Shown piece by piece: positions 30,623-42,186 of a DNA stretch of 64,000 nt (position 1 is its first letter; the number at the start of each line of letters is the position of its first letter). This stretch comes from Butyrivibrio sp. CB08. Lineage in GTDB: Bacteria > Bacillota > Clostridia > Lachnospirales > Lachnospiraceae. The notes beneath the pieces were generated by a model. It ran no database searches. It worked only from the letters and a program-made list of their open reading frames with translations, and was not told the DNA's origin. Made by a program: the position numbers and the translations under genes. The stretch covers positions 1 to 64,000 of the forward strand of contig NZ_RAIR01000004.1 in the NCBI RefSeq assembly GCF_003625485.1, in the 5' to 3' direction.

Positions 30623-30715
30623 CTGTAAACAGACATCATAAAACCGACAAAAGAGTTTCTCTCTTGCCTTAAGTCCATTCGTACAGCCAATTCCTCGTGG
30701 CCCGGTCACCCATGT

Positions 30716-30902
30716 ACAGCGACAGGCAGGTCTCCCGACTGATCGTCTTGGCTAATTAGCCGCGCATTCTTTCCCTTCCCGGACTTCTCCAGTGGTTACG
30801 AAAGAAAACTTCCGAATCACGGTGACGAGATCGCGCAGGACTTGCACCTGCTTCCCTTTTCACCTGCATAGGACTTAAAATCCCGCAGGCACCTTCCGCT
30901 TT
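30716..30902 (-). ncRNA. Cobalamin riboswitch (AdoCbl-type aptamer)
   Basis: Read on the minus strand, this leader has the hallmarks of the cobalamin aptamer: GGTGCC near the start, AGGTGAAAAGGGAAGCAGG, GTGCAAGTCCTGCGC, the B12-box-like ACCACTGG followed by CGGGAAGG, and the closing AGTCGGGAGACCTGCCT. It precedes a terminator and the 17-gene cobalamin operon starting with cbiK, so it should switch the whole operon off when cobalamin is plentiful. A weak -10-like TATTAT precedes it near 30920-30925, with no convincing -35 box. This element occupies the long gap between cbiK and the dctP-like gene. Confidence 0.93.
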
Positions 30903-30938
30903 CTATATATGTTTACGCATATAATAGCACAACAAACC

Positions 30939-40377: not shown

Positions 40378-41139
40378 TCAAAGCTCCTTTGCTATACGTT
40401 TGTTGGTAGCAAGAACTGATGATGGTCTGTCATAGGGAAGTGGCTCTCCATCTACGGTTGTCACTACTCCTCCGGCTTCCTTTACCATGAGGGAACCAGC
40501 AGCGTGATCCCATGGATAGAGCCTTAGCTCAAAGTAAAGCTCTGCTCTTCCAGCCGCGATGGTGCAAAGGTCGATGGCTGCGGAACCGCTTCTTCTAAGA
40601 TCCAGTCCTCTCTTAAAGTATTCAAAGGCTCTTTTGAAAGTCTCCTCGTAGAGTTCTTCATAATATGGAGCCGCTCCAAAGAGCACCAGTCCATTTTCAA
40701 GAGGCTCATCGGAAACGTGAATCCTCTTTCCGTTGCAGTAAGCGCCCTCTCCGGCTATAGCAGTAAACATCTCATCTGAGTATGGGTTATAAACTACGCC
40801 GATCTTAGCCTCGCCGCCCTCAATGAGCGCCACTGAGATGCAGCTCATCCTGTAGTCCTTGATGAAATTCGTGGTTCCATCAATCGGGTCCACGATAAAG
40901 AATTTATGCTCCTTATCAAACTCCGCCTGGTCGCCCTCTTCCCCAATAAACCTGGCATCTGGAACCAGGGCCAGGAGCTCTTTTCTAAGAATAGCCTCTA
41001 TCTTCTTGTCATACTCTGTGACAAAATTCGCAAGCCCTGTCTTTTCATCAATGGCTATGTGCTCTCTGTCAGCGTTTTTTATTATCTCTCCGCAGGATCT
41101 GACTATGCTGCAGATATCTTCTAGCAGTTTTTTGCTCAT
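40378..41139 (-). CDS. Inositol-monophosphatase-family phosphatase
   Basis: A lithium-sensitive-type, magnesium-dependent sugar phosphatase of 253 residues. The metal-binding sites are GEEGD (near residue 67), VDPIDGTTNFI (near residue 83) and the late block YPWDHAAGSLMVKEAGG. It dephosphorylates inositol 1-phosphate or related sugar phosphates or nucleotides; the substrate here is unresolved. It is the first gene of a two-gene operon with the dehydrogenase. The palindrome array at 41.2-41.5 kb lies directly upstream and may control it. Confidence 0.92.
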   Translation of the reverse strand: MSKKLLEDICSIVRSCGEIIKNADREHIAIDEKTGLANFVTEYDKKIEAILRKELLALVPDARFIGEEGDQAEFDKEHKFFIVDPIDGTTNFIKDYRMSCISVALIEGGEAKIGVVYNPYSDEMFTAIAGEGAYCNGKRIHVSDEPLENGLVLFGAAPYYEELYEETFKRAFEYFKRGLDLRRSGSAAIDLCTIAAGRAELYFELRLYPWDHAAGSLMVKEAGGVVTTVDGEPLPYDRPSSVLATNKRIAKEL

Positions 41140-41184: not shown

Positions 41185-41455
41185 TTACGGACCAAATACT
41201 CAAAACATGTCTTCTGATCCGTAGTTTTTCGCCCTATAACACTTGTTATTTTATTGTTTTACGGACCAATCCGCAGTTTTGTCTCTCCTGGTCCGTAAAA
41301 TCACTTTTTTGACGTTGAGAACCACCGTCTATCACTATTATATTACGGACCAGACGACAATATAACAGTAATTGGTCTGATTTTATCGATATTTCAATTT
41401 TTCAGAGTAAAAAAATTACAGACCAGAAGCAAGAAACTAGCTTTCTGGTCTGTAA
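41185..41455. repeat. Array of four phased 40-bp palindromes (TTACGGACCA-N20-TGGTCCGTAA)
   Basis: This fills the 375-base gap upstream of the phosphatase gene. The elements are 41185-41224, 41259-41298, 41343-41382 and 41416-41455. Each has two 10-base arms separated by exactly 20 bases; the 20-base cores are unrelated. Arm changes covary: the fourth element has TTACAGACCA/TGGTCTGTAA. The centres are 74, 84 and 73 bases apart, close to 7, 8 and 7 helical turns. A partial half-site TTGGTCC follows at 41464. The element family is not one I recognise: it may be a set of protein-binding operators or RNA hairpins. The fourth element also serves as a terminator. Confidence 0.85.
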
Positions 41456-41514: not shown

Positions 41515-42186
41515 TTAGAAGAAGAATACAAACTTCAGGAGAATCGATATAACTTCATATATCAGGAACCACTTAAAGAGCTTACCAAAGATGCTGCTGC
41601 CTGTTGCAGGAGTGTTCCAGTTACTATTTCCATTGGCCCCATTGCTGCCATTGTTGTAGCCATTGCCATAGTAGTGGCCATTTCTGGTGTTACTGAAGTT
41701 ACCAAAACGGAAGAATCCAAATGGGCCAAAACCGAAGAAGGTTCCAAAGTCCTCGAAAGGATTCTCGCCGCTGGTTTGCCAGTTGCCATAGCCATTTCCG
41801 CCAAAGCCATAGCCACCGTTACCGCCATAGCCTGATCCGGAAGTATTACTGCTTGAATAATAGCCATCTGTACCCGTAGCGCTGCCATAGCCTGAACCAT
41901 AACCAGTTTCAGAACCATATCCTGTTCCACGGCTTGATCCAGGGCCATAGCTTGTTCCAGATCCGTAGCTTGATCCTGGTCCATAACCCGAAGCATGTCT
42001 TGCTGTGTGGGGCTTTGACAGGATGTCGTAAGCCGCATTAACTTCGTTCATGCGCTCTGCTGCCACCTCATCCCCTGGATTTAAGTCTGGGTGGTATTTC
42101 TTAGCCAGCGTTCTATATGCTTTTTTAATTTCTTCGTCTGATGCGCCAGGAGCTACTCCCAGCACCTTGTAAGGATCTCGTACCAT
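41515..42186 (-). CDS. DnaJ-domain membrane protein with Gly/Ser/Tyr-rich region
   Basis: Residues 1-62 are a J-domain ([20 protein letters not shown], with the HPD motif in [10 protein letters not shown]), which stimulates a DnaK-type chaperone. Residues 65-150 are low-complexity Gly, Ser, Tyr and Thr repeats of the type GxGYGSG. A Phe-rich stretch ([15 protein letters not shown]), an Asn-rich stretch and a C-terminal hydrophobic helix ([17 protein letters not shown]) follow. There is no zinc-finger or client-binding domain, so it is not DnaJ itself. It is probably a tail-anchored co-chaperone at the membrane. It lies 48 bases after the zinc-ribbon gene. Confidence 0.85.

Follow-up and report, generated by a model that had tools for sequence, protein, structure and literature searches.

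Palindromes dispersed in bacterial genomes are commonly interpreted either as RNA hairpins or as debris of mobile elements. REP, BIME and REPIN sequences occur in inverted pairs and clusters and usually number hundreds of copies, BOX elements have a modular boxA-boxB(n)-boxC build, and the res sites of the Tn3/gamma-delta resolvases combine several dimer sites of the inverted-repeat type, set at distances that have to preserve the helical phase. BOX elements of Streptococcus pneumoniae are described as dispersed repeats with extensive secondary structure, judged to be parasitic (PMC3049150), and BrickBuilt of Porphyromonas gingivalis as a tandem repeat array in a MITE-like intergenic element with a leader and a tail (PMC4596501). 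REP, BIME and REPIN units are characterized as extragenic palindromes of 20-40 bp (PMC3116915, PMC3733652).

In this study we describe arrays of palindromes in Butyrivibrio sp. CB08 (CB08) and in the genomes and loci of its relatives (labelled G and L, respectively). BOX and BrickBuilt appear to be the nearest systems by plan and REPINs the nearest by their palindromes. As in BOX (PMC3049150), the repeats are dispersed and structured; they differ from BOX in that their palindromes lie near whole helical turns apart, the arm motif is array-specific and many arrays are tied to the hairpin of a DDE insertion sequence. The BrickBuilt unit (PMC4596501) measures 23 bp and is repeated without spacers, whereas the palindromes here are 5-9 turns apart. 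In contrast to REPINs, CB08 has 8 copies of a fixed quartet geometry, and no RAYT-type Y1 transposase was recognised among its Y1 profile matches (frames of 173 and 60 aa). The array differs from a res site in its four near-symmetric 10-20-10 sites, and Pfam revealed no recombinase domain in the 12 CB08 genes scanned near the eight quartets and a half-array, which are a part of all neighbours. A search of open-licence full texts found no account of such arrays.

The analysed stretch of CB08, referred to as the window, is 64 kb long. An earlier note on it had reported four palindromes with unrelated 20-base cores between a DnaJ-domain gene and a phosphatase gene. All four were recovered with the pattern TTACRGACCA-N20-TGGTCYGTAA (up to 3 mismatches), which matched nowhere else in the window (Table 1) and gave 0 matches in 100 shuffles. 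The start-to-start distances of 74, 84 and 73, the core length of 20 bases and both neighbours, which are minus-strand genes of the DnaJ-domain and inositol monophosphatase families, also agreed with the note. Palindromes 1 and 3 are imperfect. The description of the cores as unrelated held only in part: by reading, most of them carry a short T- or A-run near the middle, and in G022 core 1 and core 2 are partly complementary. Spacer 1 holds a conserved inner motif, ATAACNNNTGTTAT-like.

Table 1. Positions of the window array with its parts and neighbours, and of related features in other genomes.
Feature	Positions	Strand	Remarks
Whole quartet	41185..41455	+	strand aligning with copies C4 and C16; 1 of 8 full CB08 copies
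Palindrome 1	41185..41224	.	half-sites h1 41185-41194 and h2 41215-41224, 20-bp core; 2 mismatches
Spacer 1	41225..41258	.	34 bp, likewise 34 bp in CB08 C4, C16, C19a, C19b
Palindrome 2	41259..41298	.	half-sites h3 41259-41268 and h4 41289-41298; 0 mismatches
Central spacer	41299..41342	.	44 bp; 45 bp in CB08 C4, C16, C19a, C19b, C16b
Palindrome 3	41343..41382	.	half-sites h5 41343-41352 and h6 41373-41382 (h6 degenerate); 3 mismatches
Spacer 3	41383..41415	.	33 bp; 34 bp in CB08 C4, C16, C19a, C19b, C16b
Palindrome 4	41416..41455	.	half-sites h7 41416-41425 and h8 41446-41455, TTACAGACCA type; 0 mismatches
Inositol monophosphatase family gene	40378..41139	-	neighbour, outside the element
DnaJ-domain gene	41515..42186	-	neighbour, outside the element
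Hairpin E, examples	L072:3700-3935, L104:6817-6949, L102:6913-7012		100-200 nt, conserved internal motifs CTTTCGCGGCATATCCTCG / CTGCGGTATTCCACG
Arrays of G473	L192:3415-3717, L193:3232-3557, L194:3443-3793, L195:3170-3444		very regular TACGTATCA/TGATACGTA palindromes every 53 bp

The earlier note had missed that this array has many other copies, dispersed from one another, and that in relatives such arrays form the interior of a larger element, which shares a hairpin with an insertion sequence. Across the CB08 genome the arm pattern (3 mismatches) identified 21 sites, consisting of five groups of four and one lone site, and the reversed control pattern had 1 match. The groups are located in C4, C16, C19 (two, C19a and C19b) and the window. 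Spacings are exactly 74, 85 and 74 in all but the window quartet, which is two single bases shorter than the 273 bp of the other four. Blastn with one copy, together with reading, added C16b, which has other arms, and the covariance model R1, built from nine arrays, added C4:19198-19479, C16:69635-69916 and a half-array of 114 bp at C16:101697. The window quartet scored E 7.8e-39 in this model, whose training arrays include it, and a laxer model search of CB08 returned only one further weak partial match (E 0.35). The genome total is therefore 8 quartets and one half-array, so that 8 of the 9 copies are quartets. Their gene contexts differ: three of the five read lie between convergent genes and two between co-directional ones. 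The copies are scattered, but nearly always as phased quartets, not as the unphased single copies that the earlier note had named as evidence against it.

That note had also proposed a pattern search of relatives. With 2 mismatches the arm pattern matched CB08 only among 98 relatives; this seeming absence was overturned when blastn and the covariance model found arrays with other arms. Three related species also have the quartet, with centres about 74, 85 and 74 apart, in part at gene junctions that carry one in CB08 too. In species other than those with arrays, the stronger blastn matches fall on the arsR end of the query and leave the array uncovered. In the genus, the model matched at E <= 1 in 16 of 79 genomes, four of which hold many full-length copies; reading of others gave spacings of 75 in G050 and 84 in G003 and G004, and a half-array in G059. 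Among 139 genomes from other genera of the family, three were matched at E <= 0.01: G473, where palindromes recur at 53-bp intervals at four loci, with five to seven on each strand of a locus; G552, with a quartet spaced 74, 74 and 64; and G487, with pairs spaced 159. Repeat finders might mistake the 53-bp arrays of G473 for CRISPR-like arrays. A search of 84,980 genomes, which may omit CB08 and very near genomes, with one free position in the arm pattern yielded 4 stretches, two of which (Sulfurovum) were rejected as an unrelated hairpin repeat by reading. There was one viral-contig match to the arm pattern.

At the gene junctions of CB08 C19a and C16c, arrays with changed arm classes are also found in G022 and G006, and the arrays at such shared junctions probably descend from one insertion. 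The polC-arsR junction, the one junction compared in five relatives, contained other DNA in them and no clean empty site. Comparison of L089 (G006 C13) with L070 (G022 C11) revealed the loss of one quartet, and by reading this deletion ends in two half-site copies. A phage-integrase gene at L083:7453-8424 (minus strand, G022 C24; PF00589, E 1.8e-24) lies 284 bp from an array and runs off the end of the stretch; none was seen on reading L081, the G006 counterpart.

Many quartets of G022, G029 and G006 are contained in a non-coding element of about 1.25 kb, parts of which are missing in some copies. In order, it comprises hairpin E, a first quartet, a gap of about 60 bp, an inverted second quartet with the other class of arms, and E inverted. 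CB08 C4 follows this plan, but its two quartets almost touch; in CB08 C20 two hairpins flank three palindromes of a different motif. The window contains no match to the hairpin ends, and its quartet is solitary. Hairpin E carries the motifs TTTCGCGGCATATCCTCG...CTGCGGTATTCCACG, and the first of them (1 mismatch) was found at 59 places in 16 of the 79 genus genomes, while a stricter pattern detected E in 6 of 392 genomes of the order, two of these in other genera. E was seen in three genera, its stems by reading vary yet stay complementary, and it had no Rfam match in L072; it resembles an independent structured element. Other interiors also stand beside E, at L114:1221-1863 and L103:6130-6850, with a long inverted repeat around ATGGGGTACC-like / GGTACYCCAT and no palindrome array.

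In L157, L158 and L159, E is located about 30 bp from the 3' end of a gene for a protein of 485-487 aa, and the two of these proteins that were scanned have DDE/rve domains. We considered E as the terminus of this DDE insertion sequence and rejected the idea, because, when copies were compared, E proved to be an internal module that only some of them carry, other sequence taking its place in the rest. In G028 L186 the outer flank, besides E, is by reading also common with the insertion sequence. At the ten loci compared (L011, L102, L104-L110 and L186) the array is on the E2 side of E, which in the insertion sequence is the side of the transposase gene. Matches to the transposase occurred in 12 of the 79 genus genomes, and none in CB08, G022, G006 and G029, which implies that mobilisation in these four would be indirect. 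As to the criteria for a MITE, the CB08 genome had 0 matches to a cognate transposase; with regard to shared ends, relatives share E with the DDE insertion sequence, but it is internal there and present in only some copies, and none is found at the window array. The Y1 family, although common, was rejected as an autonomous driver: where it would have counted, its members were partial or of a different type.

The spacing of the quartets is nearly constant. In CB08 five of them (C4, C16, C19a, C19b and C16b) measure 273 bp, C42 and C16c 272 bp and the window copy (C22) 271 bp. The five 273-bp quartets differ pairwise by 55-132 substitutions with zero gap columns, and all 28 pairs of the 8 quartets together have 3636 substitutions and 26 indel events (ratio 0.007). 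The 32 quartets aligned from CB08, G022, G006 and G029, 23 of which were found by the model that favours this spacing, are 270-274 bp long (16 of them 273) with centre spacings of 73.5-74.5, 84-86.5 and 72-74; quartets seen by reading in L078-L081, L113 and L117 are outside this count. Within the 1.25-kb element (6 copies, 15 pairs) the indel/substitution ratio was 0.005 in one quartet and 0.043 in the other, 0.029 and 0.073 in the flanks and 0.093 in the gap between the quartets. Thus, the second quartet resembles the flanks.

The helical phasing claimed by the earlier note was borne out by arrays with unrelated arms, which were found via the flanking hairpin and not via their spacing and sit near integral turns of about 10.5 bp. 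These spacings are 73 in CB08 C20, 73 in G004/G032, 62-63 in G004, 74 in the CATGTCCC arrays of G004 and G003 (phased, with arms that are not palindromic), 54 and 94 in G019, and 52 and 62-63 in G028. Compiled by reading, with 62s entered as 63, the eight spacings gave V(10.5) = 0.925 (p 5e-6); scanning periods of 8-13 bp put the peak at 10.50 (scan-corrected p 2e-4, n = 8). When the arrays from weak model hits (75; 84; 53; 74 and 64; 159) were added, the peak was at 10.55 (corrected p 5e-5, n = 14). By the time the phasing idea was set down, 54, 63, 73-75, 84-85 and 94 were known values; measured after it were 52 and 62-63 in G028, an array retrieved for its hairpin at that stage, 74 in CATGTCCC, 72 in G058 (weak), and 53, 74/64 and 159 in other genera.

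An arm-blind lag test was applied to 20 hairpin interiors and reached significance in 12, among which both sides of CB08 C4 count separately; each of the 12 top lags was <=1.5 bp from a multiple of 10.5. No periodicity emerged in the other eight interiors, three of which contain quartets whose divergence is too great for the test. When each family contributed a single lag (n = 8, the quartets being one of the families) we obtained p 4.5e-5 and a best period of 10.45 (corrected p 9e-4). Among the control tiles 36 of 1673 were periodic, or 25 after merging, three of which stem from the array loci L189 and L190; here V was 0.08, 11 of the 25 lags were <=1.5 bp from a multiple of 10.5, and 21 were multiples of 3, as coding repeats would be.

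The arm motif is mostly common within an array and differs between arrays. CB08 alone has the classes TTACGGACCA (5 arrays), TTAGTACCA (2), ATACATATCA (1) and TTTCATACCA (the half-array). In 25 of the 32 quartets, left after 7 near-duplicates were dropped and still including a few, arms matched at 0.65-0.86 within an array for every odd/even pair and at 0.53-0.63 between arrays, and half-sites 1, 6 and 7 strayed most from the array consensus. Pairing scores were 0.77 for nested, 0.76 for giant and 0.73 for local pairing. The arms of an array thus mostly converge on one consensus, with no particular base-pairing partner standing out. In G022, G006 and G029 the half-sites by reading fall into class A (1, 4, 5 and 8) and class B (2, 3, 6 and 7), G006 being offset by one base past its half-site 4 in this comparison; arm 1 with arm 4 and arm 2 with arm 3 pair at 10/10 positions, arm 1 with arm 2 at only 6/10. 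Two claims of the earlier note are not supported by these data as worded: matching changes in both arms of one element are not the rule, and the pairing within an element that it took to be under selection is not the conserved one.

The note had offered hairpin RNA as the alternative, and each half of a quartet (e1-34-e2 and e3-34-e4) might indeed form a long hairpin in a transcript. Predicted folds are strong (z -9.2 in G022, -5.9 in C16b and -7.7 for the plus strand of the window), and the 10/10 pairing of h1 with h4 and h2 with h3 in G022 would suit them. However, the minus strand of the window folds about equally well (z -6.6) and the plus strand is the more stable in only 5 of 9 copies. 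G-U mispairs in the arms of the 25 quartets (0.044-0.054) hardly exceed A-C mispairs (0.034-0.050), and spacing in units of 10.5 is a trait of double-stranded DNA. Rfam gave no match above the gathering score at the window array or at the arrays of L072, L012 and L038 (these three searched at E up to 2), the only family touching an array being MIR319 in L012 (25.5 bits versus a gathering score of 54). We set this reading aside because neither strand is favoured, and consider it a weak alternative with little probability. Termination of transcription or insulation at gene ends seems highly improbable: several arms are followed by T-runs and the convergent contexts in CB08 would fit such a role, but the co-directional contexts would not, and a scan allowing loops of 3-8 (the hairpins here have loops of 20) found no intrinsic-terminator-like site over the window array.

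Mobility was weighed in two other forms. A pair of inverted 40-bp palindromes with 34 bp between them forms a REPIN-like unit of 114 bp, and Y1 transposases occur in 60 of the 79 genus genomes; single-stranded DNA hairpins moved by a RAYT-type Y1 transposase are nevertheless very unlikely, given 8 copies instead of hundreds, only one strong Y1 match in CB08 (the 173-aa frame, read as IS200-like) beside a partial one (60 aa), and a different motif in the repeats about 1.3 kb from the Y1 gene in G006 C9. A better case, although still an unlikely one, can be made for palindromes that are tandem duplicates without a role of their own, carried along as the passive interior of a non-autonomous mobile element. 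Such an interior would agree with dispersed intergenic copies among unlike neighbours, the hairpin common to the DDE insertion sequence, the quartet deleted in G006, equal tandem units in several arrays and three CB08 copies short by 1-2 bp. Against it stand the low indel/substitution ratio among the 8 CB08 quartets, the near-integral-turn spacing shared by unrelated arrays, and the arrays that stand, with changed arm motifs, at two junctions common to CB08, G022 and G006.

We find it moderately probable that the quartet serves as a scaffold on which protein dimers bind along a single helix face, and that it was dispersed together with non-autonomous mobile elements. Each imperfect 40-bp palindrome would be a likely dimer site of two 10-bp half-sites 30 bp (about three turns) apart. 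As the palindrome centres are near whole turns apart, bound dimers would face one side and could build one bent, wrapped or looped nucleoprotein complex. Near-exact distances, free sequence, whole turns and arms that change in concert fit several copies of one dimeric protein on one helix face. The several arm motifs in one genome could not be read by one sequence-specific protein, so either several paralogues or a protein that reads shape would be needed. Three of the 8 CB08 quartets, the window copy included, have lost 1-2 bp, which counts against a scaffold. The same holds for the flank-like indel ratio of the second quartet in the larger element, for the non-palindromic arms of the CATGTCCC family and for the hairpin interiors in which no periodicity emerged. 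Arrays of this kind make up the inner part of intergenic, non-coding elements that belong to one dispersed family, some copies of which may later have been kept, possibly to the benefit of host or element. A hairpin at one or both ends of many elements also stands beside the DDE-type transposase gene, which makes dispersal as non-autonomous mobile elements probable. The window quartet stands alone, shows slight wear and lacks recognisable hairpin ends.

More tentatively, phased arrays across the family (3-7 or more sites, 5-9 turns apart) might be loading platforms for fast-evolving dimeric DNA-binding proteins, the arms changing with the protein and the conserved geometry being the functional character; we regard this extension as possible but rather doubtful. 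The trait conserved here is the distance in whole helical turns, kept across arrays without common arm sequence. If the proposal is true, the arrays would represent an unrecognised nucleoprotein architecture and perhaps link insertion sequences to local chromosome structure.

Some further features were observed in the same sequences. A different hairpin repeat, GACACGGGGACGGTTC..., is scattered in the genus (G006:C9:40911-41077, L077:11908-12019 and L115:3091-5067); in G006 it lies about 1.3 kb from the Y1-transposase gene at C9:39299 and is perhaps the REP of that gene. A Clostridiales-1 RNA (RF01699, 91 bits) at L072:878-1026 (minus strand) adjoins a gene read as secA (L072:1027-3615), and the window contains a cobalamin riboswitch at 30708-30911 on the minus strand (Rfam RF00174, 97 bits).
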